Source: Thermodesulfovibrionia bacterium
GTDB taxonomy: Bacteria > Nitrospirota > Thermodesulfovibrionia > UBA6902
Assembly: GCA_945788685.1 (NCBI GenBank)
Contig: CALZMZ010000018.1
Location: 1-39,265, forward strand
Direction: 5' to 3'
DNA: 39,265 nucleotides
Positions within the stretch are counted from its first letter, which is position 1. Each line of letters starts with the position of its first letter. Shown in pieces: positions 1 to 35,569 of this stretch. The translations under genes and the position numbers were made by a program. A model generated the notes under the pieces. The model saw only the letters and a list, made by a program, of their open reading frames with translations, did no database searches and was not told the DNA's origin.

Positions 1-500
1 GGGTCATTCACCGGCATGATTGTCGCCTGGCTGAAGTTGTCGTTTTCATCAGAAGAATCTGCAAAATCAACAGAGAGATAATAGGTGTTCTCAGACGATT
101 CATCATCCATGAGGTCCCGAACAGCGATATAAATATCCTTGGGAGAATCAATATAAACGTTCATCGTTATATCTGCCGGAAGCTGACTCCCTTCAGGTGC
201 GTGGTCTGCGTAGAGCCTGACCTTTTCACCTTTCTCATTCTCCTCATACACTGTGACGAGGAGGTCCACGTCGGGCCTGTAGGTGTTACTTGAACAATTG
301 ACCTGCAGAACATTGTTCGCTTCAACCGCCTTAAAGTGATACCAGTCCACTTCACCCTGTTCTGCAATGCTCCCGGCAACACTGGAATTCAGAGACAATT
401 CTACTGTTCCTGTATCGCTGTCCTGTTCTTCAGGAACCAGTCCGCAGGCAATGAATAACAGGCTTGCTGCCATGCACATAAAAATATATATCCTTTTCAT
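1..500 (-). CDS. lipoprotein with PPC-like (pre-peptidase C-terminal-like) domain, truncated by window edge
   Basis: Reverse strand reads MKRIYIFMCMAASLLFIACGLVPEEQDSDTGTVELSLNSSVAGSIAEQGEVDWYHFKAVEANNVLQVNCSSNTYRPDVDLLVTVYEENEKGEKVRLY...; lipobox-like LLFIAC; AGAGGTGATAACA RBS before ATG; no stop before base 1. Confidence 0.75.
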   Translation of the reverse strand, partial: MKRIYIFMCMAASLLFIACGLVPEEQDSDTGTVELSLNSSVAGSIAEQGEVDWYHFKAVEANNVLQVNCSSNTYRPDVDLLVTVYEENEKGEKVRLYADHAPEGSQLPADITMNVYIDSPKDIYIAVRDLMDDESSENTYYLSVDFADSSDENDNFSQATIMPVND

Positions 501-635
501 TGTTATCACCTCTTTCATTGAATTAATGTAAAATCATGGGGCGTAAGAGTGATGTTTTTATTTTCATCCGCTATATTCACCATGACTTCTGCCATCCTGA
601 ACAGAGGGACGGCATCCGGATTATCCTCGGGTATT

Positions 636-2057
636 TCAGCAATATAAAAACGGATCAGATTGCTTCCCTCTCCGGACATAGGATTCCATCTCACTGCCCT
701 GATCAATAAGAACTAAACCGTTATCATGAACACTATAGTTGTAACTGTATCTTTCTCTGATTAAAGGATCATCCGATGTCAGGTTTGTATGTTGCTGTAC
801 CTCCAGCCAGTCCTCTGAACCATCAAAATCACTGTCAGTCGTATACTGGACCTCTAATGGATTCATACCTGTCAAAAACTCAATACCGTCAGGAATACCG
901 TCACTGTCTGTATCTACCAGATGACGGTTCGTACCTTTCACATACTCTTCGCAGTCTGTGAGACCGTCCATGTCTGAATCAGGCCACAATCCATCAACCG
1001 GCACATTACAGGGACTGTCCTGCGCCAGCGGGTCCAGCACATTCCCCGGAGAACTGAGCCGCACCTCAAAATAGTCACTCATTCCGTCATTGTCTGTGTC
1101 TTTAATACCCGGATCAGTGCCATGGGTCGCTTCATCATCGTCAATAAGACCATCTCCGTCACTGTCTCTGTAAATGATTTCTATACCGGGCCGCACATTG
1201 TAGTTATATGCGACCATGTATTTGATCTTATATTCAACCGTAAGCCTCATATCCACGACATTGATGAAATCAATGGCCTCGGCACTGTCAAAAAGGCGGA
1301 ACTGTCCTTTGCCTTCATCAGCCATACCCTGAAGCGTTTCTTCTGCCAGCTGTCTGGCCATCTGACCATTTGAGGTGGGAGGAAACATGCCCAGCAGAAG
1401 AAAGGTGTGGAAATTAAATCCCCCTACTCCTCTTTGTTCTGCCATATCATACAGATCACTCACACTATTCCATATGTCTGTATTCGGCTGGCTGCCGCCC
1501 TGGACATTGGACATGCCGTCGCTCAGGAACACAACAACGTATTTGGTACGGATCAGATTATCCTCATCTTCCCTGTTGATATCGCGTTGTATGTCTGTGT
1601 AAATCGCATCGAGGGTCCCGAGATAATCGGTCATCGTATCATTACGCGCCGCATCAAGCACGCGGTTAAGTTCATCAGGATCTTTGGTAAACCCACCACT
1701 TCCATCAATCGTCCTGGTCCGCTCAAACACATCATTGTTCCAGAGCATGATCTCAAATGACGTGTTTTCATTACTGTTATACTGGTCGATGAAATCTCTC
1801 ACCGCATCTATTCTCAGGAAATGAGGGTCTGAACCGGCCATCTGGCCATTGATCGTATCACCCATGCTCAGGGAACAATCAATGGCAAACAGGACCTTGA
1901 CCGGGAAGTTTATCTCATCAGGGCTTTCTGTCAGGAACGTGCCCTGCAGAGTGACTTTGCTCCGTGCCTGTGTCCGCTCAAGTTCATATCCACCGCACCC
2001 GGCAAGTACAAGTAGCAGAAGAGCGAGAACCGCAGCGCAGCATTGATTCCTATGCAT
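636..2057 (-). CDS. VWA-domain lipoprotein with Ca-binding TSP3/EF-hand-like repeats (probable frameshift near 700; intact gene would end at 515)
   Basis: MHRNQCCAAVLALLLLVLAGCGGYELE lipobox; VLFAIDCSLSMG MIDAS; repeated DSDGDGLIDDDE / DTDNDGMSDYFE / DSDMDGLTDCEE / DTDSDGIPDGIE; start ATG overlaps the upstream stop (ATGCATAG). Confidence 0.85.
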   Translation of the reverse strand: MHRNQCCAAVLALLLLVLAGCGGYELERTQARSKVTLQGTFLTESPDEINFPVKVLFAIDCSLSMGDTINGQMAGSDPHFLRIDAVRDFIDQYNSNENTSFEIMLWNNDVFERTRTIDGSGGFTKDPDELNRVLDAARNDTMTDYLGTLDAIYTDIQRDINREDEDNLIRTKYVVVFLSDGMSNVQGGSQPNTDIWNSVSDLYDMAEQRGVGGFNFHTFLLLGMFPPTSNGQMARQLAEETLQGMADEGKGQFRLFDSAEAIDFINVVDMRLTVEYKIKYMVAYNYNVRPGIEIIYRDSDGDGLIDDDEATHGTDPGIKDTDNDGMSDYFEVRLSSPGNVLDPLAQDSPCNVPVDGLWPDSDMDGLTDCEEYVKGTNRHLVDTDSDGIPDGIEFLTGMNPLEVQYTTDSDFDGSEDWLEVQQHTNLTSDDPLIRERYSYNYSVHDNGLVLIDQGSEMESYVRRGKQSDPFLYC

Positions 2058-2817
2058 TACAGGCATCCCCTTTCCCGTCCTGATCTGCATCAAGCTGCTC
2101 CGGATTAGCCTCTGAAGGACAGTTGTCACATGCATCACCGATTCCGTCGCCGTCAACATCATTGTTTTCATAGGTATGGGCGCGCGGACACAGGTCTGCA
2201 TTTACACTTCCGTCCTCAGGAAATCCGTCGTTATCAAGGTCATTGTCACACACGTCGCCGGCAGTGTCGTCAACCATATAGAAATCACTGTTTTCCTGCC
2301 CGGGATTATGCACCATGCTGCAGTTATCTACAGAATCCGGCACCCCATCATTGTCATCATCCTCATCACAGAGGTTGCCGAGACCGTTTCCATCGTAATC
2401 ATTCTGCAAGGGATTAAAAACCAGGATGCAGTTGTCCTGGGCATTCACAATATTATCTCCATCAATATCTCCGTCACATGCATCACCTGCACCATCGTTA
2501 TCCGTGTCTGACTGGTCATTATTTGCCATGTCAGGACAGTTGTCACAGGCGTCACCGTGATCATCACCGTCTGAGTTTTCACTCTGATCATTAGGGGTAA
2601 AGAAACAGTTGTCCCTTGTATCAACCACACCATCGGCATCCAGGTCTTCCTCAAGGGAGAAGACCGGTCCCAGATCATAATTCACGACAATCGGTCCTCC
2701 TCCGCCTCCTCCGCCGCCTGCACCGCCGGCCGGGGGAGCTCCGCACAGATCATCAGGGCATTCATTAAACCATTCATTTGGATCAAAATCCTGTGCCCCT
2801 GCCTCTTGACCACCCAA
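2050..2817 (-). CDS. thrombospondin type 3 repeat (calcium-binding) protein with poly-Gly linker
   Basis: Repeated DxDxDGxxDxxDNCP motifs (DADGVVDTRDNCFFTPNDQSENSDGDDHGDACDNCPDM...); start unclear (TTG at 2817, no clear RBS or signal peptide). Confidence 0.8.
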   Translation of the reverse strand: MGGQEAGAQDFDPNEWFNECPDDLCGAPPAGGAGGGGGGGGPIVVNYDLGPVFSLEEDLDADGVVDTRDNCFFTPNDQSENSDGDDHGDACDNCPDMANNDQSDTDNDGAGDACDGDIDGDNIVNAQDNCILVFNPLQNDYDGNGLGNLCDEDDDNDGVPDSVDNCSMVHNPGQENSDFYMVDDTAGDVCDNDLDNDGFPEDGSVNADLCPRAHTYENNDVDGDGIGDACDNCPSEANPEQLDADQDGKGDACNA

Positions 2818-2838
2818 TAATATAGATTAAAGCCGCTC

Positions 2839-4179
2839 TTATGAGCTGCCATCAGTTTTATAAAACATATAAATTGATGTGTCCGTTTTAGAGTATGAAG
2901 CAATCACCGGCGAGTCATTGTCATCAAACCAGAGATTATTATAGAGACCGATATCCCCTGTTGAAGCCACGAGTTCCCTGTCAGTCCATAAGTCGTCCTT
3001 AAACCGGGCAAGCTTCAGGTTCCTGAGGTCATATCCGCTGTGACTTTCTATCTCATAATATGCAACAGCAGGGAGCCCTGATGAATCAAAAGACAGGCTG
3101 GGATATTTCCCGCACAGGACCGAATCATCCACGGTCTGAACAGTCCATGAAGAACCTTCCTGTCCGGCGTACTTCAAATAATGCGTATCACTGCGCCCAT
3201 CATTACAGTCCGTAATATAGTAAGCCACGCCTAATACGCCCTGGTTGTTCATGCCGGCACTGATTCCCCCTATCTCACATCCGGTTTCTATCCACTCTTT
3301 CAACCATGTTCCATCTCCGTTCCTGTGAGCAACTCTCAATCCCTTTGTTAAATCCGGAAGTTCGGCATAGTAAAAAATTACCGGATTATCAGAGCCATCG
3401 ATTACAATGACAGGGAAATCTCCGGCACGATTCTGAATATTTGGACCGTCATACTCGTTTCCTTCCACGACTTCCTCAACCGTTCCGCTGTCACCCAGCG
3501 AACTCCTCTGCTTTTTCACGTAGTACATATCAGGATACTGAAAATTCATGGAGTCACAGCCTTCATAGAGAAACTGATATGCGATATGAACATCTCCATG
3601 GGAATCAAAGGCTACAGAAACCTCTGTCCCTGCGAGACCGTCTGTGAACACAGGATTTCTTTCTACAATTCCTGTTGCTCCCGTATACTCCTGCCACAGA
3701 CCATTTCCCCTTATGCTCAACATGGCGTCTGACTGCTGCTCAGAGCCGCACTCCCGGACCTCTCCTCCCTGATACACAATGACCGGAACATTATTATGAT
3801 CAAGGGCAAGATCCAGGTTTCTGCTGTTATCGATAGATGCGATGCTCTCAGTCTGAACGCCTGTCTGGATAATTCCCGTATGCGTGTCATGGACCAGATA
3901 ATGGACATCGTAGGGAGCACTGCTTCCCTGGCTATCAGTAAAGTACGTGATATGGACCTTCCCGTCACTGGCCGGAAATGCCTTCACCCTGGGACTCAGC
4001 AGCCCGCCGGCATTGAGCTGCTTAACCGGTGTTTTCTGCCACGTACTGCCGGGAGGGTCATTATCTGGTGGTTCTGAACCGCTGCTGTTCGGTCCGCCTC
4101 CGCATCCATAAAGGACAATCATGCTGATTGTTGCGGCAGCAAACAGGTTATAAAGAACTGGTCTGCATATACGTACCAT
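2839..4179 (-). CDS. lipoprotein with beta-propeller/sialidase-like repeats
   Basis: MVRICRPVLYNLFAAATISMIVLYGCGGG lipobox; recurring blades NNVPVIVYQ, HGDVHIAYQF, DNPVIFYYAE, QGVLGVAYYI, SGLPAVAYYE, DSPVIASYS. Confidence 0.75.
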   Translation of the reverse strand: MVRICRPVLYNLFAAATISMIVLYGCGGGPNSSGSEPPDNDPPGSTWQKTPVKQLNAGGLLSPRVKAFPASDGKVHITYFTDSQGSSAPYDVHYLVHDTHTGIIQTGVQTESIASIDNSRNLDLALDHNNVPVIVYQGGEVRECGSEQQSDAMLSIRGNGLWQEYTGATGIVERNPVFTDGLAGTEVSVAFDSHGDVHIAYQFLYEGCDSMNFQYPDMYYVKKQRSSLGDSGTVEEVVEGNEYDGPNIQNRAGDFPVIVIDGSDNPVIFYYAELPDLTKGLRVAHRNGDGTWLKEWIETGCEIGGISAGMNNQGVLGVAYYITDCNDGRSDTHYLKYAGQEGSSWTVQTVDDSVLCGKYPSLSFDSSGLPAVAYYEIESHSGYDLRNLKLARFKDDLWTDRELVASTGDIGLYNNLWFDDNDSPVIASYSKTDTSIYMFYKTDGSS

Positions 4180-7100
4180 TGATATAAGCACTATATAACT
4201 CCTTTGCTTTCGGATGAACAAGATCTGTTGACTCCTCTACGAGCAGTGTGTTGGGAAGGCTTTCGTAAATCATTCGGGCATGCTCTGCGTGTCCGTAATG
4301 CTGATAGAGTGCTGCAAGATTTATTTTTGCATCTATCAGTCCAGGGTCCAGTTTCAGGGCCTCTTTAAGTGCATGTTTGGCTTCTTCATCATGCCTGCTG
4401 TTCATCCGTGATATAGCGATGACATTATAAAAATTTGCCTTTAAAGGCTCATTCCCGTCCTGCAATTCTTCAATCGCCTTTTGTGCAATCAGCATGGACT
4501 GGAGATAATCACCCCTTTCAAGATACCCTCTGGCCAGAGCATGCAGTGTCTTTACATCCCTGGCGTTTTTCATCAGGGTGTCGTGAAGGACTTTCAGTTC
4601 AGCATCTACGAGGAATTCTATACCGATCTGAGATGGTGGATGAGAAACTGAAAAAGAGTTATTGTTCCCCTGTCCCCCTGACGTCATGGTGTACTGCGCA
4701 GGCTTCTGATCAAATATTTCCCATTTGTGAACAAGCTCATTAAATGTAGTTAAATACTGGTCAGCTTTCTCATCATAGCCCTGTGCTTTGTCATGTATGA
4801 GCTTCACGTACTGGGGCTTTTCTTCAGGTGATAATTCAGGAAGCGGCGCCTCCTGAAGAAAGCGGGCAAATTCCCTGTTTATTTCAGAGGCGCGATAAAA
4901 TGATTTCAGTGCCCAGACAGGTGATTTGAAAGCAACAACATCAAGGTACCCTTTTTCGAGCGTTGCAAGGAGTTTTGATTTGGCAGCTACAACCTTGTTG
5001 TCAATGTTGCGTTCAAGCTGCTTTTCCATGTAACTGCGGTATGTCGGGTCCAGAGCATTAAAGGCAATCTGTGTCATCAGGTCTTTCAGATACTCATCCC
5101 GACTTCCATACTTACTCTTGTAAGCTTTGCGGGCTTTTTTTCGATATTTGAGAGACTCTTTGTGGTTTCCTTTTTCAAAATACGCTACAGAGAGTAACGC
5201 ATCTGCCTTTATCCTTGCTGACACTGTGAGATCGCTTCTGATGTTTTTAAGAAAATCATAGGCGTCCGCACGTTTCCCGGACTGCCTGAAATTATCAAAC
5301 ATGGAAAAGGCAATCTTATCCTTCTCTTCCCCCTTCTTTTTCATGCGCTCCAGAATCCGTCTGTAATCCCTGTTCGAGAGGTCGTGCTGACCAAGTCCTT
5401 TTCTGATCTGTGCCGCCTTTATCAGAAAGTCACCGGCATTGTCATGGCCGGGAAACCTCTCTGTAAAGACTTCCAGATATTCTGCAAGCATCCGGAACTG
5501 TGAAATCTTTAATGAGGAGTCGATCATGATTCCAAGCATATCTTCTGTGTTTGAAGAGCCGGAAGATGCTGAAATGAGTTTCCCGCCTGTAGCAAAAAGT
5601 GTTTCGAGGTCTCCTTTCTCCCTGCTCGAGGCAATGAGTGTGTTAAGGACCTGCTCTCCGAGACCGGTTGATTTTTTCTCTTCAACATAATCAACCAGTG
5701 TTGATTTGCCCGTTTCCCAGTCATCCATTGCAGCAACTGTGAAGGAAGATACGATCTTTGATTCAGACGCATGTACAATCTTTCCTACCTCAGCTTTCAA
5801 CGTCTTATCATTGATGCTGCTGTCATTGAGTATCTTTTGACCGAAATTGATAAGTCCCTCATAATCTTCCTTAAGATTGTAGGCATCAAGGGTTAAATGA
5901 ATCGCGGCTTTGGCTGGTTTACCGTTCGGGTACTTTTTAATAAATGCAATGAATTTATTGATCGCTTCATCGTATTTGCCTTCATCATAGGAAATCCAGG
6001 CTACATTAAAGAGCAGGTCAGGGACTCTCGGGGATTGAGGAAACTGACTTGCATATTGAGTACCCACCGTTGTAATGCCGCCCCTTGCAAACGCTGCCTG
6101 ATAATAATTGAGCTCCTCTTTCTGTTTCAGGGCTTTATAGTAAGATGAGGCTGCGCTATAGAGCATCTCTTCTTTCTGTTCAGTCTTCAGCAGGTCTCTG
6201 TCCGCAATTTTTTCATACATCTTGCCTGCTTCAAGGTAGTGGCCGGATGAAAAAAGGGCCTCTGCATAATTGTCTTCCATTTCGTCGAATGCAGGACTTT
6301 CTTCAAAAAAAGACAGGTATACATCATAGGCATCTGCAGCCCGCCTGAATTCAGGGAGAGATTTCGTTTTCCTTGCCCGGTCATGCATATGCGTTACAAT
6401 GTTCCGTGCATAGAGCTCAAAGTCAGTCATGTTTTTTTCTTTTTCTGCATCGGGCGTATGTACAGAATATTTTTGACTCCTGAGTGCCATGACAATAGCA
6501 TGAATGTCCCTGTCAGCATTTTCATATGTATCGAGGGCCTGGACACAGTCAAATATATGGCGTGCATAGGCAAGCAGTTTATCCGCTGACTGTTGAAGCC
6601 CTGAAAGATGCCGGTAGAGCACGGCAGCATTGTCCCATTTCTTCTTTATGTAATATCTATAGGCAAGCTTCTCTAAGACCGCAGTATAGACCGGCCTTGA
6701 CCAGGCGAACTTTTTAAAATAAGCGATTGTCTCACCGGGTTTCTTATCCTTGTACACTTCTGTATAGCAGTAAGCCATATCAATCAGGGATGCAAACCGT
6801 ATATCTACCCGCTTATACGTATCAATTTCAAGATCACCGTCAGGAGCGCTTTTGATAGACTCTTCCAGAAGCCTGAGTGCCTCATTAAACTCTGAATTAT
6901 TAATATGGACCCATGCCAGTTTATAGCGGGCAACTGAGACAGCCGGGCTTCCGGGATGTCCGAGAACAGCCTTGTAATGTTTTTCCGCTGCCGGAAGGTC
7001 CATTTGATTTACATAATAATCGCCAAGTAACAGATGGGATTCAGGAACATAATCACTGTCTCTGTGCTGCTCAATGATGGATATATAATGCGTGACCATG

Positions 7101-7579
7101 CTATCGAGTTGTCCGGTTTCCCGGTATTCATGGGCCATAAAGAAGTGGACCTTGTCCCGTGATTCAAAATCCAGGAAGGTATCCAGGATTCTCTGGTATA
7201 TTTCAATTGCCTGGTTTTTGAATAACCTGGATTCGTACTGGGTCAGAGAGTTTTGCGGACTGTCTGATTCGCTGCTTCTGAGAAAATACGTGATACGTGA
7301 CCGTTCGATATACAGCTCTGCAAGACGAAGATAGAGTTCAGGGAGGTATGGCCTGTTTCTTGATCTGTCAATCAGTGTCTTTGTGTTCCTGATTGCCATA
7401 TCCGCCTTTCTGTTGTCCTGTCTGAGTTTCTCAACAAATTTCACCTGTTCTTCTGCTGTATTCTTTTCTTCATATCCATATGTGTCTTCGCTGGCACCCC
7501 TGGCAGCAAGAGCCAGGATGATGAGCAGCGTAAGGATGATGCTGCATGCTGTCTTTTTCATGAACTCCTTTTTAATCAT
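4148..7579 (-). CDS. large secreted tetratricopeptide-repeat protein (GltD/NfsD-like in size and context)
   Basis: 1143 aa with signal peptide MKKTACSIILTLLIILALAARGASE and many TPR-like helical repeats; ATGA overlap with upstream gene. Confidence 0.8.
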   Translation of the reverse strand: MIKKEFMKKTACSIILTLLIILALAARGASEDTYGYEEKNTAEEQVKFVEKLRQDNRKADMAIRNTKTLIDRSRNRPYLPELYLRLAELYIERSRITYFLRSSESDSPQNSLTQYESRLFKNQAIEIYQRILDTFLDFESRDKVHFFMAHEYRETGQLDSMVTHYISIIEQHRDSDYVPESHLLLGDYYVNQMDLPAAEKHYKAVLGHPGSPAVSVARYKLAWVHINNSEFNEALRLLEESIKSAPDGDLEIDTYKRVDIRFASLIDMAYCYTEVYKDKKPGETIAYFKKFAWSRPVYTAVLEKLAYRYYIKKKWDNAAVLYRHLSGLQQSADKLLAYARHIFDCVQALDTYENADRDIHAIVMALRSQKYSVHTPDAEKEKNMTDFELYARNIVTHMHDRARKTKSLPEFRRAADAYDVYLSFFEESPAFDEMEDNYAEALFSSGHYLEAGKMYEKIADRDLLKTEQKEEMLYSAASSYYKALKQKEELNYYQAAFARGGITTVGTQYASQFPQSPRVPDLLFNVAWISYDEGKYDEAINKFIAFIKKYPNGKPAKAAIHLTLDAYNLKEDYEGLINFGQKILNDSSINDKTLKAEVGKIVHASESKIVSSFTVAAMDDWETGKSTLVDYVEEKKSTGLGEQVLNTLIASSREKGDLETLFATGGKLISASSGSSNTEDMLGIMIDSSLKISQFRMLAEYLEVFTERFPGHDNAGDFLIKAAQIRKGLGQHDLSNRDYRRILERMKKKGEEKDKIAFSMFDNFRQSGKRADAYDFLKNIRSDLTVSARIKADALLSVAYFEKGNHKESLKYRKKARKAYKSKYGSRDEYLKDLMTQIAFNALDPTYRSYMEKQLERNIDNKVVAAKSKLLATLEKGYLDVVAFKSPVWALKSFYRASEINREFARFLQEAPLPELSPEEKPQYVKLIHDKAQGYDEKADQYLTTFNELVHKWEIFDQKPAQYTMTSGGQGNNNSFSVSHPPSQIGIEFLVDAELKVLHDTLMKNARDVKTLHALARGYLERGDYLQSMLIAQKAIEELQDGNEPLKANFYNVIAISRMNSRHDEEAKHALKEALKLDPGLIDAKINLAALYQHYGHAEHARMIYESLPNTLLVEESTDLVHPKAKELYSAYINGTYMQTSSL

Positions 7580-9069
7580 TTAAAAAAAATATCCCATTCT
7601 TCTGATTGATTGCATTTATCCGGCAGTATCACGTTGTAATCATCCAGTTCATCAGTCCAGAACTCTCCCTGAAACGGATACCCCACCCTGCTTCGCATGC
7701 CCGGACCATCATCTTTGGAAAAAGCTTTGTCTTCCCTGTAATGGAACTGGTTGACCCGTTGATACATGTCCAGACCTATCTCATATTCGATAAGATGGGC
7801 CTCTTCTTCATACTGCAACAGGTCATTGGCCATGTCTTCATATTCTTTTCTGACCAGGTCCTGAAGTTCCTTCACTGTTTCCTGAATCTGCAGGCTGTAG
7901 ATCTTATCGATATAATCAAAGAGGTCTTTTTGAGAAATCTGTTTTCCCTTTTCCCGTTCTTTTTCGAGCAGGAGAAGGAATCTCCATGTTTCATTGATCT
8001 GTTTTTTATTCAGAATGACCTGCAAAAGGTCCTCGTTGTCAGTTACCTTATCACGTGCATAAATCACTCTTAATGAATCGCTGTAGTGACTATTGAATTC
8101 TTCAACAACTGATAATGCCTTTTGATAGTGACAGACAGACTTGTAAATGAAAGACTTCAGTATGTAGTATTCGGGAGTGAAGAAATTCTGAAATGACGGG
8201 GCCTGAAATGCATAGAGCAGACCCATGGCCTTTTCATTATCTCCATTCCGGTAGTGGGTCCATGCCCTTTCCATAAGATTCCTGGCCTGGTCAAGCATGG
8301 GTTTGTCGATCTGCCCGTACATGAAATCAGCTTCCCTGAATTCTCCCTTTTCATAGAGAAGACGTGCAAGGGTCTTTCGCACATCATTTTTAAAATCATC
8401 TGACTCAAGCGGGCCTTTCAGGACCTCCTTCAGCAATACAATGGCATCATCGATCCTGTCCTGATATATGCTGTAGAGCGCCTTCTGGTACAGGTATTTG
8501 TAAAAGTAGTAGGACCCCGGTGTTATCTTTTTAAAATGGTCTGTTCCCCACTGATCAAAACCATGCTCCCAGTCAATCACTCCCTGGTGGAAATGAATGA
8601 AATCCGATAAATGCTGTTCAACGAACCCATATTCATGGCCGCTGAGGACCTTACGGGTGACAATCCCGCGGTCATATGGCAGAGTACGTGACACGTGCTC
8701 AATCATTTCCAGGGAATATGATACGATCTTCGGATCTGGTTTCCTGGCCACAAGATGTGAAAGGAGGTCAACCGAAGCATGGGAGAAGCCGAGCTTTCGT
8801 AATGAAAGACCAAAGAAAAACTCTGCCCATTCATAATCCAGTTGATCAGGAGAATTTACTTTCAGATATGCATAGAGCAGTTCACTGGCTTCCATGTACT
8901 GCTTGTCCTGAAAGAATGCATATCCTTTTCTGAATGCATCACTGTCACCGGCTTTGTCCGTCTGATCCAGGGTAATGATTAAAGCTGCCTCGTGCTGCAC
9001 GGCTTCGGTATGACCGGCACACAGGATCAGCAGCAATAAAACTGATAATAGTTGTTTCATTCTTATCAT
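7576..9069 (-). CDS. secreted tetratricopeptide-repeat protein (GltE/AglT-like)
   Basis: 497 aa with signal peptide, TPR-like repeats and C-terminal YPFQGEFWTDELDDY motif; lies between OM barrel and large TPR genes. Confidence 0.75.
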   Translation of the reverse strand: MIRMKQLLSVLLLLILCAGHTEAVQHEAALIITLDQTDKAGDSDAFRKGYAFFQDKQYMEASELLYAYLKVNSPDQLDYEWAEFFFGLSLRKLGFSHASVDLLSHLVARKPDPKIVSYSLEMIEHVSRTLPYDRGIVTRKVLSGHEYGFVEQHLSDFIHFHQGVIDWEHGFDQWGTDHFKKITPGSYYFYKYLYQKALYSIYQDRIDDAIVLLKEVLKGPLESDDFKNDVRKTLARLLYEKGEFREADFMYGQIDKPMLDQARNLMERAWTHYRNGDNEKAMGLLYAFQAPSFQNFFTPEYYILKSFIYKSVCHYQKALSVVEEFNSHYSDSLRVIYARDKVTDNEDLLQVILNKKQINETWRFLLLLEKEREKGKQISQKDLFDYIDKIYSLQIQETVKELQDLVRKEYEDMANDLLQYEEEAHLIEYEIGLDMYQRVNQFHYREDKAFSKDDGPGMRSRVGYPFQGEFWTDELDDYNVILPDKCNQSEEWDIFFK

Positions 9070-9076
9070 CTCAGCG

Positions 9077-9781
9077 TTACCTCAGATACTTCTTAAGTTT
9101 TTCCATGGTCTCATCTTTTTCTTCCTTGCGGGCAGACAGATTAAACCGGTATCCCAGGCTGAAACCAAACCAGAAGTTATTAATGGTCTTGTCTCCCCTG
9201 AAATTTACCCAGTCCCTTAATTCAACATTCAACGCAATATTTTTATTTACGAATATTTTCTGACCCAGTCCGAGACTTACGGATGGCGCGATCTCATTTT
9301 CCGGATCTCCTACGCTGAACTGTTTTTCATATATCACAGCACCGCCGCCTGCAAACAGATATGTCTCATGATTGATCACAGACCGGTCCCTGAAAATGTC
9401 CTTACCATAGAGGGGTTTTAATACAAGATGAGAATGGACAGCATACTTTGGCTCTCTTATGACCGTCGGTGTAACGCCAAAGCTGTCTTCAAGGTCCTGT
9501 TTCAGGTCTTTGTCCCGGTTGAAGACATAGTGACCTCTTGCAATTTCCCAGGCAAAGAGTTCGTTAAAATGAAGCGTATATCCGAGACTCAGCGGAAATA
9601 CATTATAGAAATCATCATTGGATATATAACCGGATCCCAGACTGATTTCATGGCTACGATGAAACACCCTGCTCTGAATTGCAGAGACATGACCTTCCCT
9701 GTTCTGCTTTTCACAAAAACCGTTATCAGCAAGACCGGCTATCAGTAACGTAACCAGGATTACTATATGCAATACTTTCAT
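9077..9781 (-). CDS. outer-membrane beta-barrel domain protein
   Basis: Signal peptide MKVLHIVILVTLLIAGLADNGFCE then alternating beta strands (SLGSGYISNDDFYNVFPLSLGYTLHFNELFAWEIARGHYVF ... WFGFSLGYRFNL). Confidence 0.75.
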   Translation of the reverse strand: MKVLHIVILVTLLIAGLADNGFCEKQNREGHVSAIQSRVFHRSHEISLGSGYISNDDFYNVFPLSLGYTLHFNELFAWEIARGHYVFNRDKDLKQDLEDSFGVTPTVIREPKYAVHSHLVLKPLYGKDIFRDRSVINHETYLFAGGGAVIYEKQFSVGDPENEIAPSVSLGLGQKIFVNKNIALNVELRDWVNFRGDKTINNFWFGFSLGYRFNLSARKEEKDETMEKLKKYLR

Positions 9782-9793
9782 TCAACGACCTCC

Positions 9794-12022
9794 TTAAAAT
9801 CCCACAATGTCAAAAACAAAGGGGTATGAAACAATAACTTCCGTATTTGTTGGTTTTGGAAACTGCCAGGATTTTATCGCCCTCTTGATACATGAGTGGA
9901 TGCTGTCTGACTTGACAGACGATGTCTTGATGCCCACCTCTCCGACCTTTCCTGACAGCATGATCTTCCATTCAAAGACAATACTGCCTGCCAAAGATGG
10001 ATTTCCCATAAGTGCATTTTCATAACAGTAGCTCACTTCATCCATGTGCTGGTCTATTACCCGTTTGACCGCTTCACGGCTCATACCACCGTGAATGCGG
10101 ACGTTATTATCAAGCGCTACCGACACCATACCCTTGACTCCCTTGTGTCCTGCTGTTCCTTCATTCAATTCCGCGATCCTGCCTTCGCCTTTTGTACCTG
10201 CACTTCTCAGCACCTGACTGGACCCCCGTGTCTTCAACAAATCACCGACAGGCAGTTCGATTTCCGGGCTGTCCAGTTTATCGGCAATACCGGACACCCT
10301 GAAATTATCTGCATTCATACGCGGTGAAGAAACAGTATCCAGATTGGTGACCGACGCCAGCGCTTCTTTCGGTTTGATGCCGGTGCTGGCACCGATCAGA
10401 CCAAGTATTCCTGCCTGCTTGATATTCCGTTTCTTAACATTTCCTTTTTGTGCTGCAGTCTTTGTTCTGGACTTTACAACCTTCTTCTGTTTTGGAGCCT
10501 TTTTCAATTTCTTTGCTTTCTTAATTACAGGCTTTTCTGTCTTAAGCTTCTTTTTTGGGGGCTTGGCTGGTTCCGGCCTGCTGAGTTTTGCTGTATCAAT
10601 ATGGACAAAGCGTGACTCAGGGGCTGTCTGGTTCTGCTTTTGGGGCAGTGAGACAAACAGTGCAACCAATAACATGAGAACAATATGAAACCCTGCCGAG
10701 TGTAAAAGGCTTTTGTGAAATCTCTTTTCCTGTTGCGGAGCGGCTGCAACGTTAGGACTTTTCGACCTGATTACTCTTCTGAGCAGATAGCTGTAGTGAT
10801 CATCAGTTAATATGACCGTACCTTTTTTTGGTACTGCCGATCGATAAATTTCCTTTCTCCTGTTATGCACATTTTCAGAAGTACATAAATCTGTAACATT
10901 AATGTCCGTTGCATCACTGCTGCAAAGCTGTCCCCTGAATCGATCTGTAAAATAGAAATAACATCCATGACTGTTTTTATTCTCTGCCAGGCAAAATTTT
11001 CTTTTGCCATTCATGGAATGATATTTCTCCTGCTCATCGAGAAAACAGATATCGTAAATATGGTCATCTCTGAACTTTATGATCTGAAGGGCAATAAGTC
11101 CGGTTACCGAATCAGTATTAACCTGTCTGGGTTCCATCAACCTGTCTCTGAGAAACAAAGGCAGATCTCCTTTGTCATCTTCGTCATCTTCGTCATCTTC
11201 TTCTGTTTCTTCCTCGCAAGCAAATGGTTCAGATTCAATCTGCTGAAATTGCGTTTCGATCTCATGCAGGTATTCTTCAGTAACAGTATTATTAGTTTCA
11301 GGGACTGCGGTCTGGTTCATCGAGATCGGTTTTTCATTTTGTTCCGGTTCGATCAGGATGTCATTTTGTGCTTTATCTCTTTCTAATATCTCAGGCTCAC
11401 TCTCTTCTTCAACGAACTCTGCAGAGTTTTTATCAGTAACAAAAGGAATGATCTCACTTTCTATCAGACGTTCCCTGTCCAGGGTACTCGCTTCTTCAGA
11501 ACGGCTTTCACTCTGACACAGAAATGAAGGACCGGTATATTCTTCTGCAGGCTCATCATGAATGTCCGCATCATGCTCTGATATCACATCCTCAGTAATC
11601 GATTCACTTTCTTCCAATGGAGTATTCCGTGAGAGATGATTGTCCGATGCAGTCAGAGCAGCGTTTAATGATGAGGGTTTCTGAATCTTTACTTTTATGG
11701 TATAGGAGCCTATCTTCACGAAATCAAGAGGCCCCAGCCTGCGTGTTGTTACAAGCTCTTCGTTTACGGTTACCCCCTCATTTACGCATATATCAAAGAC
11801 AGTAATTTCATTGCCGGTCAAATAAAAGACTGCCTGAACATCAGCAATTGTTTCATCTTCAAGGACTATATCTGCTTTTGCGTGCTTTCCTACGGAGACT
11901 GATTGTTGAGCAAAGCAGTCCCATCCAAGCAGTTTCTCCCCCTGATAAACAAAACATGCAACAACAGCACTTTCCCGGGTTATCGGCTGTTCTGTTTTGA
12001 GTTCTTTTGCTGACTCAAGCAT
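9794..12022 (-). CDS. FHA-domain / single TM / Lys-Pro-rich linker / AgmX-PglI C-terminal domain protein (GltG/GltJ-like)
   Basis: FHA-like N-terminus SVSVGKHAKADIVLEDETIADVQAVFYLTGNEITVFDICVNEGVTVNEE; TM SLLHSAGFHIVLMLLVALFVSLP; PEPAKPPKKKLKTEKPVIKK linker; C-term GGMSREAVKRVIDQHMDEVSYCYENALMGNPSLAGSIVFEWKIMLSGKVGEVGIKTSSV...IHSCIKRAIKSWQFPKP. Confidence 0.85.
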   Translation of the reverse strand: MLESAKELKTEQPITRESAVVACFVYQGEKLLGWDCFAQQSVSVGKHAKADIVLEDETIADVQAVFYLTGNEITVFDICVNEGVTVNEELVTTRRLGPLDFVKIGSYTIKVKIQKPSSLNAALTASDNHLSRNTPLEESESITEDVISEHDADIHDEPAEEYTGPSFLCQSESRSEEASTLDRERLIESEIIPFVTDKNSAEFVEEESEPEILERDKAQNDILIEPEQNEKPISMNQTAVPETNNTVTEEYLHEIETQFQQIESEPFACEEETEEDDEDDEDDKGDLPLFLRDRLMEPRQVNTDSVTGLIALQIIKFRDDHIYDICFLDEQEKYHSMNGKRKFCLAENKNSHGCYFYFTDRFRGQLCSSDATDINVTDLCTSENVHNRRKEIYRSAVPKKGTVILTDDHYSYLLRRVIRSKSPNVAAAPQQEKRFHKSLLHSAGFHIVLMLLVALFVSLPQKQNQTAPESRFVHIDTAKLSRPEPAKPPKKKLKTEKPVIKKAKKLKKAPKQKKVVKSRTKTAAQKGNVKKRNIKQAGILGLIGASTGIKPKEALASVTNLDTVSSPRMNADNFRVSGIADKLDSPEIELPVGDLLKTRGSSQVLRSAGTKGEGRIAELNEGTAGHKGVKGMVSVALDNNVRIHGGMSREAVKRVIDQHMDEVSYCYENALMGNPSLAGSIVFEWKIMLSGKVGEVGIKTSSVKSDSIHSCIKRAIKSWQFPKPTNTEVIVSYPFVFDIVGF

Positions 12023-12078
12023 GATTCGTATTCCACCGTACTATTTTTGAAGTTATATGTATGCCTGTCATGATCTGC

Positions 12079-12387
12079 TTATTCTTCAATATTGCTTCCC
12101 TTCAATGTTTCAACCGGGAAATCTTCCATAATTTCATCTCGAAAGTTTTCCCGGCTATTCAGCATGCTCTTGATCTCGCTTTTTTTCCGTTTAAGAAGAT
12201 ACACTGCCCCGGATTTAATTGTCTGTCCCATGATAAAGGCATTTCCAAAGTCAATCCGTTCCAGCAGCTCGGTGTTATCTCCCTGCAGATCGTTTTCCCC
12301 CTGCGATGTACCCTCCTGCACAATTCCTTCTGCCAGTGAGACAAACAGCATGGTTATTAAAATAAGTGTCCCGATGAAATATCTCAT
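12079..12387 (-). CDS. small secreted protein of the motor operon, unknown function
   Basis: 102 aa, signal peptide MRYFIGTLILITMLFVSLAEG; ATGA overlap with ExbD-2. Confidence 0.65.
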   Translation of the reverse strand: MRYFIGTLILITMLFVSLAEGIVQEGTSQGENDLQGDNTELLERIDFGNAFIMGQTIKSGAVYLLKRKKSEIKSMLNSRENFRDEIMEDFPVETLKGSNIEE

Positions 12388-12887
12388 TTCAGTACTCCTT
12401 CTTTCTTTAAAACTGCGAACTGAAAGTCAGGAAAGCCTGCCATAACAGCTGTCTTCATGATACTGTTGATGGTTTTGAAGGGAATATTCCTGTCACAGAA
12501 GAACAATATATGGTCTCCTTTTTTGCCATCTTCCAACACCCTGTCCATCTGCTCGCGGTAGAAACTGAGTTTCCTGTAAAGGTCAGAATCTTTCAGCCTG
12601 TCCTTCCTGAGCCCTTTTACCCTTCCGTTCTCCAGTTTCGCAACAACCGTGTCATTGAGTTTCAGGTTCTCTTTGGACAAAACCATTTTGATCGTCTCGT
12701 TATAATCCATCTTTGCCGTAGATTGAGGCAGGTCCAGCTCTTTGTCCAGGTTCATTGTCTCGGGCTTATCAGAGAACGAAAAAAGCAGGAATATTAACAC
12801 AATGGTAAACATGTCCATCATGGCCGTGATCTGCAGCTTTGGAGTCACAAACTTACTGGATTGTTTTTTCCTTTTTCCTAGTGCCAT
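12384..12887 (-). CDS. ExbD/TolR family protein (copy 2, Asp retained)
   Basis: Short cytoplasmic N-term, single TM LQITAMMDMFTIVLIFLLFSFS, periplasmic domain; downstream of ExbB/TolQ. Confidence 0.85.
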   Translation of the reverse strand: MALGKRKKQSSKFVTPKLQITAMMDMFTIVLIFLLFSFSDKPETMNLDKELDLPQSTAKMDYNETIKMVLSKENLKLNDTVVAKLENGRVKGLRKDRLKDSDLYRKLSFYREQMDRVLEDGKKGDHILFFCDRNIPFKTINSIMKTAVMAGFPDFQFAVLKKEGVLK

Positions 12888-12898
12888 TGAGATATCTC

Positions 12899-13408
12899 CT
12901 ACCCTACCCTTCCCGAAAGGACCACATTGGGGAACAAAGCAGGACTGGTTTGTGAATAACGTGCAGCATCCATTGCCTGAATAATTGTATCGTATACAAC
13001 ATCCTTGTCCGGGATAATGATGACCGTATCACTCTGAGGATAGCTTTCCTTGATTTTCTGAAGAACGAGAGTCATCTGATCAAACCGATACTCTTTTTGC
13101 TTTTCGTTCTTTATCTGATACTCCAACTTCTTTAGTTCTTCATTAAGAACAGCTTCTGAATTAGCAGTTAACTGGATCCTGTTTTTCTTTATCTCCGCAA
13201 TGACCGTGACTTTTCTATTTTTCTCCGCTGCATCACTCACTACTGATTCACCCTGAACAGGAGCTGATGTGTTAATAGCTTTCAGATGAAAAAAGGAGGC
13301 CGACATAAGTAAAAATGGAATGAGCACCAGAAACATGTTCATGATCGGTACCATATTTACCTCAATCTCTTCTTCTGTATGTCTTTTACGCCGCGTTAAT
13401 CTTGACAT
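12899..13408 (-). CDS. ExbD/TolR family protein (copy 1, Asp to Asn in TM)
   Basis: MSRLTRRKRHTEEEIEVNMVPIMNMFLVLIPFLLMSASF...; TolR-like layout with VVIIIPDKDVVYDTIIQAMDAA. Confidence 0.85.
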   Translation of the reverse strand: MSRLTRRKRHTEEEIEVNMVPIMNMFLVLIPFLLMSASFFHLKAINTSAPVQGESVVSDAAEKNRKVTVIAEIKKNRIQLTANSEAVLNEELKKLEYQIKNEKQKEYRFDQMTLVLQKIKESYPQSDTVIIIPDKDVVYDTIIQAMDAARYSQTSPALFPNVVLSGRVG

Positions 13409-14036
13409 AGTTTTCATCCCTTCTTTTCAAAGAGGAAAGAGCATTAAAGAGCCTGAGCGACTTCTCCTCAAACTGCTCAATCACGTGGTCACCCCTGTTG
13501 TTCAGCACGTAATAGCCAATGAGACAGGGAATCGCCACAATCAGGCCAAAGGCAGTCGTGAACATGGCCACGGATATGCCGTGGGCCAGTATCTCCTGTT
13601 TTGCTGCTGCATCGGCATTACTTACGCCCTGGAATGCTGTTATAAGTCCCACAATCGTCCCGAGCAGTCCGAGTAAAGTAGAAATATTGGCAAACAGGGT
13701 CAGATAATTTATCCCGGCTTTAACCCGAGGAATTTCTTTCATGATGTTTTCTTCAAGGGTCAGTTCTATCTCCCTGTCTCTTTTGTCTGACTTGAGCAGG
13801 CCTGCTTTGAGTATTCTCCCAAGAGGGTGTTTTTCAATTTTTGAACATTCCTCAAGCGCCCCGTGGTAATTGAACCTTTCAAGAAGAGTAATAATCTTTT
13901 GAAATGATTTATCAAAATTAATCTTGAGTCTCAGAAAGAGAAAGCTGGCCCGCTCCAGAAATAATGCCAGTGCGACAATGGACAGGGCCAGAATGATATA
14001 CATGAAAAAACCTCCGCTCTGAAGTAATGAAAACAT
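13386..14036 (-). CDS. MotA/TolQ/ExbB proton-channel family protein (AglR-like)
   Basis: GGFFMYIILALSIVALALFLERASFLF ... NISTLLGLLGTIVGLITAFQGVSNADAAAKQEILAHGISVAMFTTAFGLIVAIPCLIGYYV; AGGAGG RBS. Confidence 0.93.
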   Translation of the reverse strand: MFSLLQSGGFFMYIILALSIVALALFLERASFLFLRLKINFDKSFQKIITLLERFNYHGALEECSKIEKHPLGRILKAGLLKSDKRDREIELTLEENIMKEIPRVKAGINYLTLFANISTLLGLLGTIVGLITAFQGVSNADAAAKQEILAHGISVAMFTTAFGLIVAIPCLIGYYVLNNRGDHVIEQFEEKSLRLFNALSSLKRRDENYVKINAA

Positions 14037-14101: not shown

Positions 14102-14129
14102 ATTATAAAAATTTACAATCATTTCTCAA
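14102..14129 (-). promoter_or_regulatory. predicted sigma70 promoter of the motor operon
   Basis: Reverse strand TTGAGA - 16 nt - TATAAT, about 65 nt upstream of the ExbB start. Confidence 0.5.
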
Positions 14130-21827: not shown

Positions 21828-23162
21828 ATGATAAATCTTCTGAAGAGTCACATGATTTTGTACAGAAACGCTTTAATATCCTCAACTTGTATCGTCCTAT
21901 TATTATTATTTGTAACTACTGCAGCTGCTCAGCAATGCACTGACAATGATCTTGACGGCTATTTTAAGGAAGGCGGCATATGCGGTTTAATTGATTGCAA
22001 TGACAATGATAAGACCGTCTTTCCTGGTGCATCAGAATTATGTGATGCCAAGGATAATAACTGTGACGGAAAACTTGATTTCACAACTGATGTGGACAGG
22101 GATGGTGATGGTGTGCCCATGTGTGCTGAAGATTGTAATGATAATAATCCGCACATCTCACCTGAGGTACAGGAAGGTCCCTATGATCGTATTACCTGTA
22201 GTGACGGGATTGACAATGACTGTGATTACAGGATTGACATGGCTGATGAAGATTGTATAAAAGAGTGTAAGGATAATGACGGTGACGGTTTTGGAAACCC
22301 CGGATTGATCATCTGTGCTAATGGGCCTCTCACTGACTGTAATGATAGTGACGCCAGCATACATCCGGAAGCAGCGGATAATAGCTGCAATAATATTGAT
22401 GAAAACTGTGACGGGTATAATGATGAAGGCTATGTAAACAGCATAACTGAGTGTGGTCAGGGCATATGCTCATCTTCCGGATTATTGATATGTTCTGATG
22501 GTGTTGAAATTGATACCTGCTCTCCTGGAGAAGTTTTCTCAGAAGGACCTGCCGGCAATTCAACATGTTATGACAATGTTGACAATGATTGTGATGGTGT
22601 AATTGATTCAAATGACACTGATTGTGTAAGTCCTTGCATTGATAATGATGCTGACGGATATGGAAATCCCGGAGTGATAACCTGTGACAATGGTCCTCTT
22701 GCTGACTGTAATGATAATGATGCGTATATACATCCGCATGCCCTGGACAATAACTGCAACAATATTGATGAAAACTGTGATGGATATTATGATGAAGGCT
22801 ATATAATCACAGTTACCGAATGCGGTCAGGGTATATGCTCATCATCGGGATTATTGACTTGTTCAGGCGGTGTTGAAACTGATACATGCTTACCTGGAGC
22901 GGTTTTATCAGAAGGACCTGTTGGTGATTCAACGTGTTATGACACTGTGGATAATGATTGTGATGGTGTAACCGATTCAAATGACACTAACTGTGTAGGA
23001 CCATGTATTGATAATGATGGTGACGGATACGGCAGTCCGGGTAATATTAACTGTCCAAATGGTCCTATTACTGACTGCAATGATCAGGATCCGGCCATTA
23101 ATGCCCATAATATTTCATATTGTGATCCGGCACTTCGGAGAATACTCAAATATATATTCTGA
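21828..23162 (+). CDS. secreted MopE-like metal-binding-motif repeat protein, probably C-terminally frameshifted
   Basis: Repeated DCNDNDxxxxPGAxExCDxxDNNCDG motifs; out-of-frame FnIII-like tail (SCFTLTTYDIAGNESIYSNEVCY) continues to 23292 in another frame. Confidence 0.8.
   Translation: MINLLKSHMILYRNALISSTCIVLLLLFVTTAAAQQCTDNDLDGYFKEGGICGLIDCNDNDKTVFPGASELCDAKDNNCDGKLDFTTDVDRDGDGVPMCAEDCNDNNPHISPEVQEGPYDRITCSDGIDNDCDYRIDMADEDCIKECKDNDGDGFGNPGLIICANGPLTDCNDSDASIHPEAADNSCNNIDENCDGYNDEGYVNSITECGQGICSSSGLLICSDGVEIDTCSPGEVFSEGPAGNSTCYDNVDNDCDGVIDSNDTDCVSPCIDNDADGYGNPGVITCDNGPLADCNDNDAYIHPHALDNNCNNIDENCDGYYDEGYIITVTECGQGICSSSGLLTCSGGVETDTCLPGAVLSEGPVGDSTCYDTVDNDCDGVTDSNDTNCVGPCIDNDGDGYGSPGNINCPNGPITDCNDQDPAINAHNISYCDPALRRILKYIF
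22264..23100 (+). repeat. in-frame 369-bp tandem repeat (two full copies plus partial third)
   Basis: gataatga at 22272, 22641 and 23010, spaced exactly 369 bp; units share ECGQGICSSSGLL...DNDCDGV. Confidence 0.85.
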
Positions 23163-33421: not shown

Positions 33422-35569
33422 CTAATTTAACATACTGATGGCCTGATAATACTTCTGATTATTTATTGTGGTATTATAAAAATACTCACGCAAAACTGTA
33501 TGAAAGGGGTGGTCTATTTTTTGCGCAAGTTCCTTCCTTATATTCTTGCTTGTTTCCTTGTACGCGGGTAACTCAGCCAGTAATTTTTCAGCTTCTTCCA
33601 GATTTACAATGTCCTCTTTTACACGCTTCAGGGCTGAAATAAACTGTTCACTGCCTTTATCTCCTCGCTCTCCATCATCCGGACTTAACTCTTGAATTAA
33701 TTCATCCAGCCTGGATTTCAGGTCCGGATCATCATGCTGAAGGTTTGCCTTCACATCGTTGAAGTAACTGCCGCTTTCATCATTAATACTGTTCAGCCTG
33801 GACTGGATATCTTCCCTGACAATTTTGGCTCCATTGCCCTGGACAAAAATCAATGTATTGGCTCTCATTATTAAATTGGGTATTTCTCTCTGCAGGTCAT
33901 GCATTGATGTCATTAATGAATCCGGAATTTCTCCGTATTTCCACGGCTGCGCAAATTCACTATCCTTCAGCCTCTGTGCAATAGGAAAAACATACTTGAC
34001 ATATAGTCCCGGCTTCCCCATCTCATTTACCGTATGGGCCAATTCCATAACTGCATCCGGATTAAAAGGGAATATCTCCACGTACTGTAACAGACTGTTA
34101 AATGCTCGATTATAATTGGCCATTCCTTTGCTGTAAGGTGCCAGTCTGCTATTCAGGCTGGAATACTTGGCGGCAGCCTCAGCAGCATTGAAATAGGCAT
34201 TATCAGGAATTATGTCAATATATCCATTTTTCTGGTAATTCTCAAAAAACTCCAGATATTGAAGTAATGCTGCCTCGGTCTTGATGACCTTGTCCGAGTA
34301 ATCCCGGATGTCCGCCTCAGCAATTCCCTTTTCATAATAATATGCACTCCATAATGACAGTTCAACAACCGAGCTCCAGATACTGTGCATAGCAGACAAA
34401 TAATCATTCCGATTCGCAAAGCCATGTTTGCCCCACTGGTCTACCCTGATTTCAGAATCCGCCAGCTGATCATATAGTGAAATGGCCTTTTCAATAGTAA
34501 GGTTTCCGTTTGTTGCTGATAACATTGAGAATATACTGTCCTTCCTGATGTCCTTTGGTTCGGGCAATCGTGAATAAGCAAAACTTATCAGGTCAAGATA
34601 ATCACTCAGAACAGCTGCCTGTCCCTGACTGGTCTTTGCTGATTCATAAGCAAGGTTGTAATAGATGTTGGAATTCGTGTAAGCCTCTCCTGCTTTTTCT
34701 GACGGACCCTCGTCATTAAGGGCTTTTTGTGTTTCAAAACGATACTGTTCAGCTTCAAGGAAAATTACCGTATAAAAAAGGTTATTTGAGTCTGATTTAG
34801 GTCCTGACATGCGATTGACTATTGTATTTACTGTATCTGAGTACCCGTTCTCAAGAGAAAGTCTGTCCTGCAACGCACGAATGACCACCCCAAGAGAACC
34901 TATGTTACGCAGTTTGCACTGAATAATCGCCTTGGTTATAACCAGATTGGCAATATTTTCATACAGGTAGGGCAAGCTATACGCGAATTCCTTCATGGAT
35001 ACAGGGGTAGAGGGAACTTTCAGTACAGCATTTTCCTCTTCATGGGGCAGCACAATATTAAGCCAGATTTTAAAAATATTTTTTACGAACTTTCCGGTCG
35101 CAACATCCATATCAAGTCCTTCATCTGCAATAGCATCATAGGTATGAATAAAGTGATACCAGAAACCAATATCAGACTTCTCAATCTTTCCTTTAAGCAG
35201 TTCAATAACCCTGATAGCCTCATTTAATCTGATCCTGTCCCCGCTTGCAAGATACAGTAACAAGTCAGCAACTGCCAGACGTTTGTATCTGTATTCGTGA
35301 TATGGAAATCTGCTGTTTTCGTTTAGGACCTCACCGGTATTATCAGGTGTACCAAAGAGTGTATTGTTCCATTTATCAGCATATTGCGAGAGACTCTCAC
35401 CAAATTCCTTTTCCTGATCACTGATCCAGGACGTAAGTTCATCCTCATCCCAATAGGTCAGTTCATAGGCATGGTCAAGGTATACATCCCATTTTGACTG
35501 ATCATTATCAGTTTGAGCACACACATGACTACTGATTAACAGTAATAAAACAATTATTATTTTCTTCAT
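33422..35569 (-). CDS. secreted TPR/alpha-helical repeat-like protein of unknown function
   Basis: 715 aa; signal peptide MKKIIIVLLLLISSHVCAQ; long helical, weakly TPR-like; ATGA overlap with upstream TonB-like gene. Confidence 0.65.
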   Translation of the reverse strand: MKKIIIVLLLLISSHVCAQTDNDQSKWDVYLDHAYELTYWDEDELTSWISDQEKEFGESLSQYADKWNNTLFGTPDNTGEVLNENSRFPYHEYRYKRLAVADLLLYLASGDRIRLNEAIRVIELLKGKIEKSDIGFWYHFIHTYDAIADEGLDMDVATGKFVKNIFKIWLNIVLPHEEENAVLKVPSTPVSMKEFAYSLPYLYENIANLVITKAIIQCKLRNIGSLGVVIRALQDRLSLENGYSDTVNTIVNRMSGPKSDSNNLFYTVIFLEAEQYRFETQKALNDEGPSEKAGEAYTNSNIYYNLAYESAKTSQGQAAVLSDYLDLISFAYSRLPEPKDIRKDSIFSMLSATNGNLTIEKAISLYDQLADSEIRVDQWGKHGFANRNDYLSAMHSIWSSVVELSLWSAYYYEKGIAEADIRDYSDKVIKTEAALLQYLEFFENYQKNGYIDIIPDNAYFNAAEAAAKYSSLNSRLAPYSKGMANYNRAFNSLLQYVEIFPFNPDAVMELAHTVNEMGKPGLYVKYVFPIAQRLKDSEFAQPWKYGEIPDSLMTSMHDLQREIPNLIMRANTLIFVQGNGAKIVREDIQSRLNSINDESGSYFNDVKANLQHDDPDLKSRLDELIQELSPDDGERGDKGSEQFISALKRVKEDIVNLEEAEKLLAELPAYKETSKNIRKELAQKIDHPFHTVLREYFYNTTINNQKYYQAISMLN

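Follow-up and report, generated by a model that had tools for sequence, protein, structure and literature searches.

The closest described relatives of the locus analysed here are the envelope machines and cohesion proteins of Myxococcus. The Glt machine of Myxococcus xanthus works CglB, a von Willebrand factor A (VWA) lipoprotein adhesin (PMC12288465, PMC13104615). The M. xanthus G2 cluster comprises gltK, gltB, gltA and gltC (PMC3169522), and CglF is the protein also called GltF (PMC4488436). MtsC, printed as MstC in the source, is a protein of cell-cell cohesion and S-motility (PMC11980579), and the NCBIfam models of MtsC and MtsD name them as Myxococcus proteins of cell-cell cohesion. What the Glt core does in bacteria that do not glide is an open question (PMC3169522, PMC3858216). 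The locus described here is a twelve-gene operon of Thermodesulfovibrionia bacterium (Nitrospirota; UBA6902), carried by contig CALZMZ010000018.1 of assembly GCA_945788685.1. The window, meaning the whole stretch of DNA analysed, is one entire contig (G000:C18, 39265 bp) of a 2.6-Mb draft genome, and the twelfth gene is cut at base 3 for that reason.

The twelve genes probably encode a single envelope-spanning machine of the Glt type, driven by the proton motive force, that displays, moves or releases an adhesion complex of the Mts type, most likely for attachment between cells or to surfaces. The evidence comprises the gene content, homologies, conserved residues and linkage of the operon. 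Its open reading frames run consecutively on the minus strand from base 14036 to base 1, with successive gaps or overlaps of -32, +11, -4 (ATGA), +56, +12, +7, -4 (ATGA), -32, +21, -14 and +135 nt. An earlier note on this DNA had proposed a twelve-gene minus-strand operon, and all twelve frames are present in the order it gave; it had also called the machine "fused" to a set of lipoproteins, but the genes are linked, not fused. Protein families were assigned by Pfam and NCBIfam profile matches, the NCBIfam matches being judged against curated cut-offs. The features, in the order of transcription, are as follows.

14102..14129, minus: sigma-70-like promoter, TTGAGA-16-TATAAT, a consensus match only (11/12 consensus positions)
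13386..14036, minus: ExbB/TolQ/AglR-like motor subunit (MotA_ExbB PF01618, 4.7e-30)
12899..13417, minus: ExbD-like subunit 1 (PF02472, 9.5e-14)
12384..12887, minus: ExbD-like subunit 2 (PF02472, 9.9e-9)
12079..12387, minus: small secreted protein, CglF/GltF-like (NF033764 CglF, 7.7e-6, residues 11-88 of 102, below cut-off)
9794..12022, minus: GltG-like force transducer (FHA, 1.5e-6; AgmX/PglI tail NF033768, 1.4e-31; GltG NF033760, 1.9e-30)
9077..9781, minus: outer-membrane beta-barrel protein (TIGR04565 OMP_myx_plus, 5.1e-24, 85.1 bits, cut-off 60)
7576..9069, minus: GltC-like TPR protein of 497 residues (NF033756 GltC, 2e-27, residues 32-334, below cut-off)
4148..7579, minus: secreted TPR protein of 1143 residues (TPR families; size and position like GltD)
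2839..4179, minus: beta-propeller lipoprotein (lipobox LYGC; AlphaFold2 model with a predicted local distance difference test score, pLDDT, of 81 and a predicted template-modelling score, pTM, of 0.83)
2050..2817, minus: TSP3-repeat protein, MtsC-like (NF047638 MtsC, 8.1e-61, 206 bits; TSP_3, 1.8e-34)
636..2063, minus: VWA and TSP3_bac lipoprotein, MtsD-like (NF047639 MtsD, 1.1e-31; TSP3_bac, 3.1e-10; weak VWA match)
3..500, minus: PPC-like lipoprotein, cut by the contig end (772 residues in locus L040; 57% identity to L011:2757-5075)

Motor, transducer and envelope-spanning parts

Among the features of the Agl-Glt/Nfs class, an ExbB gene with two ExbD genes, a transducer built of an FHA domain, a transmembrane helix and an AgmX/PglI tail, and a GltC counterpart are present. 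The ExbB gene is the first motor gene in the relatives as well. ExbD and TolR proteins usually bear a proton-binding aspartate at a transmembrane site. In ExbD subunit 1 this aspartate is replaced by asparagine at residue 27, as it is in 17/17 aligned homologues covering the site, whereas subunit 2 carries the transmembrane aspartate at residue 25, as do 18/18 homologues. This asymmetry suggests that the two proteins may form a heteromeric pair with one protonatable carboxylate. The GltG-like protein consists of an FHA domain (residues 42-105), an acidic linker, one transmembrane helix, a stretch rich in lysine and proline, and the C-terminal AgmX/PglI domain (residues 648-737). An SxxxH motif lies at residues 442-446 within the helix and is found in 16/17 homologues; the helices of TonB and TolA likewise carry SxxxH.

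The homology of ExbB and ExbD, together with the SxxxH helix, would also fit a generic TonB-ExbBD or Tol-Pal system. Such a system is extremely unlikely, and was rejected: the transducer ends in an AgmX/PglI tail, GltC- and CglF-like genes always accompany it, no TonB-dependent receptor is among the conserved operon genes, and a separate Tol-Pal cluster lies on C12 of the same genome. The preference of the earlier note for a Glt-type machine over a generic TonB operon is thus borne out by the matches to GltC, GltG, the AgmX/PglI tail and CglF. The AgmX/PglI tail occurs once in the G000 genome. Elsewhere in the window (33422-37553, minus strand), three overlapping genes encode a lipoprotein, a TonB-like protein and a secreted protein of 715 residues that matched no family; the TonB-like protein has an SxxxH helix (residues 23-27) and a stretch rich in lysine and proline, and no ExbB or ExbD gene adjoins the three.

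The remaining envelope parts resemble Glt proteins to varying degrees. Homologues of the small secreted protein match CglF at 9.1e-5. The size and position of the 1143-residue TPR protein suggest that it may be the counterpart of GltD, no GltD model having matched it; M. xanthus GltD has 1191 residues (PMC3169522). Of the Glt-type matches, only two pass the curated cut-offs, those of the AgmX tail and OMP_myx_plus, and the GltG-like protein as a whole scores 106 bits against a GltG cut-off of 650. The GltG-, GltC- and CglF-like proteins are therefore regarded as relatives, not proven orthologues, because their scores are below the equivalog cut-offs.

The putative surface proteins

The four genes that follow encode the putative cargo of the machine. 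The TSP3-repeat protein and its counterpart in L114 (206 and 213 bits, respectively) do not reach the MtsC equivalog cut-off of 350 bits. The match nevertheless reflects more than acidic repeats, because it begins in the N-terminal part of the protein, beats the next TSP3 family by 120 bits and is not shared by the other acidic repeat protein of the window. The latter (21828-23162, plus strand) is a secreted, cysteine-rich repeat protein with a weak match to an acidic double-disulfide repeat and no match to MtsC. The VWA lipoprotein matches MtsD over both of its domains and itself bears TSP3_bac repeats, which corrects an earlier reading. Its MtsD score is 110 bits in the window, and homologues reach 5e-39 in L033 and 3.8e-44 (151 bits) in L114, the equivalog cut-off of 800 not being reached. 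The MtsC- and MtsD-like proteins end in TSP3 repeats, and no MYXO-CTERM was seen in them. On these scores, they are best regarded as relatives of MtsC and MtsD, not as equivalogs. The metal ion-dependent adhesion site (MIDAS) of the VWA protein reads DCSLS and FLSDG, and DCSLS or DCSGS together with SDG is invariant in the 12 homologues aligned; this site may bind metal. No relatives of the VWA protein were found in viral contigs.

The propeller lipoprotein has no Pfam match. The best matches of its model in the PDB are fucose-binding lectin propellers of the PLL/PHL type (E 8.6e-10, template-modelling (TM) score 0.69 by target length), followed by sialidases, and sugar binding by the propeller is possible. 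As for the PPC-like protein, its L040 homologue was modelled as a series of beta-sandwich domains, and the best informative PDB match is the collagen-binding domain of ColG (5iku). Overall fold matches were poor (TM score by query < 0.2), and therefore only the beta-sandwich nature of the protein is used here. Judged from domains and homology, the cargo proteins would be exposed on the cell surface, bind calcium and act as adhesins.

The lectin-like and sialidase-type folds of the propeller bring to mind a transporter of surface polymer, in which the propeller and PPC-like proteins would bind a polysaccharide that the motor moves or packs; Nfs, a paralogue of Glt, moves spore-coat polymer (PMC3858216). 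However, the conserved operon contains no gene for polysaccharide synthesis or export, a lectin-like fold is no proof of sugar binding, and the homology to MtsD and VWA proteins points to adhesion, which makes a polymer transporter improbable.

It is also conceivable that the operon encodes a true gliding machine, in which the adhesion complex would be transported along the cell and push on the substratum as in M. xanthus Agl-Glt with CglB. The closest characterised homologues are gliding proteins, and a match to CglD (up to 6.8e-17) spans the TSP3 part. Homologues of MglA are found in most carriers tested, but MglA is absent at threshold from the carrier G002 and present in the non-carriers G004 and G054 (G numbers denote genomes), and it was set aside as a marker of gliding because it is not diagnostic. 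Moreover, the operon lacks a counterpart of GltI or of full GltJ, which link the M. xanthus machine to the cytoplasm, and the match to CglD is weaker than that to MtsD in every case. Cohesion is preferred to gliding, since MtsC, itself a cohesion and S-motility protein, and MtsD are what the cargo resembles most, and since GltI and GltJ counterparts are missing from the operon. A gliding machine thus seems unlikely.

Linkage, spread and condition of the operon

A search for relatives of GltC yielded 24 loci, from a sister genome, from G051 and from others that are almost all metagenome-assembled genomes named as sulfate reducers or "Deltaproteobacteria". The operon proteins of the sister genome (Thermodesulfovibrionia, Nitrospirota) are 71-90% identical to those of the window. 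In other loci the same genes occur in the same order, mostly at 30-75% protein identity, and this recurrence makes the arrangement more than chance. The propeller, TSP3 and VWA genes directly follow the large TPR gene in 14/14 loci with a sufficiently long contig (L029, L030, L032, L033, L037, L038, L040, L041, L043, L044, L045, L046, L049 and L050), and the PPC gene follows in 13, L044 ending inside the VWA gene. In G051 (locus L040, Nitrospirae bacterium), the complete PPC-like gene is followed by a proS-like gene; the operon ends there at gene twelve, because this next gene is unrelated and lies on the opposite strand. A GC-rich, divergent group (G420, G460 and G496; loci L114, L117 and L119) has the TSP3, VWA and PPC genes before ExbB and keeps the other genes. 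The run from TSP3 to ExbB is unbroken in G420 and G496, and the propeller gene is seen only in G460, after the TPR gene. Genes that change places yet stay together make a stronger case for a functional unit than synteny by itself.

Co-occurrence tells the same story. Among 297 genomes of the phylum of G418, probably the Desulfobacterota to judge from the named loci, of which L046 is an exact match to G671 of this set, GltC is found in 8 and a full-length VWA protein in 7, all 7 among the 8. Among 396 genomes of the phylum of the window, 2 have full-length GltC, and it is these 2 that have the full-length VWA protein, the remaining matches being repeat-only or weak TPR matches. The linkage and co-occurrence rule out the cargo genes as chance neighbours of the motor genes. 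The earlier note had named the loss of this linkage in relatives as one result that would speak against its claim; the VWA/TSP3 genes were examined there and remain linked to the motor genes. G496 also carries a further, distant cluster (L139; G496:C48, 1577-8996) that encodes large TPR proteins, ExbB, two ExbD and an AgmX-tail protein and may be a plain Glt core.

Few genomes carry the module, and its distribution is patchy. It is present in G000 and in its congener G002, which has GltC, and not in the congeners G001 and G003 (78% complete) nor in the other family members searched. In a tree built from seven concatenated proteins, the window falls with L033 and G051 with L041, both L033 and L041 being loci of the Desulfobacterota type. 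A single clade of the two Nitrospirota copies was rejected (approximately unbiased test, p-AU 0.0002), and the module was therefore probably acquired twice. Independent acquisition of the whole unit would be the simplest reading of what is a quick tree, and suggests that the twelve genes spread between bacteria as one. The site beside the right-hand neighbour gene of the window holds unrelated genes in G001. The G002 operon lies away from that neighbour, and ExbB is preceded there by an IS3-type transposase. L137 (G002:C207, 466-1296 and 1617-6504) represents either a further copy of the operon in G002 or a strain variant of it, and has an IS3-type transposase immediately before ExbB.

The copy in the window is damaged. 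The TSP3 gene is without the ATG and signal peptide that its relatives carry (lesion region 2050-2840 of the window), and an internal deletion of 77 nt relative to L040 puts the 3' end of the VWA gene out of frame (500-780). Decay of the locus, which would leave the machine non-functional in this genome whatever its role elsewhere, is a minority possibility, and it is compatible with the adhesion machine proposed above. On the other hand, all remaining operon genes are open, and because the two lesions are close to the end of a contig in a draft genome, an assembly error is indistinguishable from decay. The sister genome is uninformative, its contigs stopping before the TSP3 and VWA genes. Statements on the machine thus rest on the relatives as much as on the window copy. 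The promoter-like match lies 66 nt upstream of the ExbB gene, in a region with 11 sites of all scores where 5.1 are expected. No RNA elements and no tRNAs were found in the window.

Proposed function and comparison with known systems

It is proposed that proton flow through ExbB-ExbD would drive the helix of the GltG-like protein. This protein would cross the periplasm, and force would pass through its tail and the CglF-like, GltC-like and large TPR proteins to the outer-membrane barrel. The complex on the barrel side would carry the lectin-like propeller, the MtsC-like TSP3 protein, the MtsD-like VWA/TSP3 protein and the PPC-like protein, and the output would be motor-driven display, movement or release of this adhesion module. 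The Glt machine provides a precedent: it engages a complex in the outer membrane and unmasks CglB (PMC12288465). Assembly of the machine, surface exposure, metal binding and output are predictions of this scheme.

Several points weigh against it. Most Glt models are matched below their curated cut-offs, so the orthology of each part is not established on present scores. No match to GltA, GltB, GltI, GltK or, beyond the shared AgmX tail, GltJ was found in the operon. A separate GltE-like TPR lipoprotein is likewise missing from the operon, the part of the genome searched for it, and the 1143-residue protein gives a generic TPR match only. The machine may not work in this genome, because the TSP3 and VWA genes are damaged. 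Finally, L047 (G418) is an exception to the linkage: GltC-TPR and ExbB-ExbD-ExbD-CglF-FHA lie on two contigs, and there is no full-length VWA protein. The G418 loci L138 and L120 encode a related machine apparently without the adhesion module.

Alternatively, the motor may drive the four cargo proteins out through the outer membrane, after which they would act without it. Several of them, as lipoproteins, would require a path to the surface, and a barrel is encoded alongside. However, motors of the TolQR/ExbBD type are not known to export lipoproteins. Glt and Nfs act after export (PMC3858216), and an export motor is distinctly improbable.

More speculatively, the operon might encode a proton-driven, horizontally transferred adhesion motor by which a lectin-VWA-TSP3 junction between cells is actively loaded, moved or released; attachment in these anaerobes would then be powered and reversible, not passive. 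This extension is tentative. If it is true, adhesion may be the ancestral output of Glt-type machines and gliding a derived one. The motor, transducer, periplasmic and surface parts are fixed in one twelve-gene, phylum-crossing unit, and the full part list can therefore be read from synteny. The operon further links cohesion proteins of the Mts type with a motor of the Glt type and raises a testable question for Myxococcus: does one of the orphan Glt-like clusters (G4, G5, M2) power Mts cohesion? A search for MXAN_1328-1336, the neighbours of the G5 gene MXAN_1327, returned nothing.

The suggestion of the earlier note that the link between motor and cargo genes may be undescribed holds in part. 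No paper was found on the one-operon arrangement, nor on Glt-type machines in Desulfobacterota or Nitrospirota, in a partial literature that does not cover the original mts account, and the word "Desulfo" is absent from the founding Glt survey. On the other side, the relatives of the cargo, MtsC and MtsD, are already named, and a VWA adhesin worked by Glt, CglB, is known.

The NCBIfam matches place the machine in the Glt group. Tol-Pal and TonB-ExbBD share the motor family and the SxxxH transducer helix, but not the AgmX tail, the FHA domain and the Glt-type partners. Myxococcus Mts offers likenesses in the TSP3 protein (MtsC) and the VWA/TSP3 lipoprotein (MtsD), although the scores are well below the equivalog cut-offs and the MYXO-CTERM is not seen here. 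M. xanthus Agl-Glt (AglRQS, GltA-K, CglB, CglD and CglF) has the same ExbB and two-ExbD motor, FHA-transmembrane-AgmX-tail transducer, CglF/GltF-like, GltC-like and large TPR proteins, outer-membrane barrel and VWA lipoprotein. It is divided among clusters G1, G2 and M1, whereas a single operon is found here, with no GltI, full GltJ, GltK, GltA/GltB pair or separate GltE, and with MtsC/MtsD-like cargo accompanied by a propeller and a PPC-like protein. M. xanthus Nfs (NfsA-H) resembles the operon as a Glt paralogue without GltI, J and K, but it borrows the AglRQS motor (PMC3858216), whereas the operon brings a motor of its own together with an adhesion module. The Glt core of Gammaproteobacteria, Geobacter and Fibrobacter (Luciano et al. 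2011) likewise has counterparts of AglRQS, GltG, GltC and GltD in a single region, the GltD counterpart being putative in the present operon, and has spread horizontally. It includes GltE plus an additional gene and, as described, lacks gltF and gltH, whereas CglF/GltF-like and barrel genes are part of the operon described here, together with a fixed surface module of four genes.

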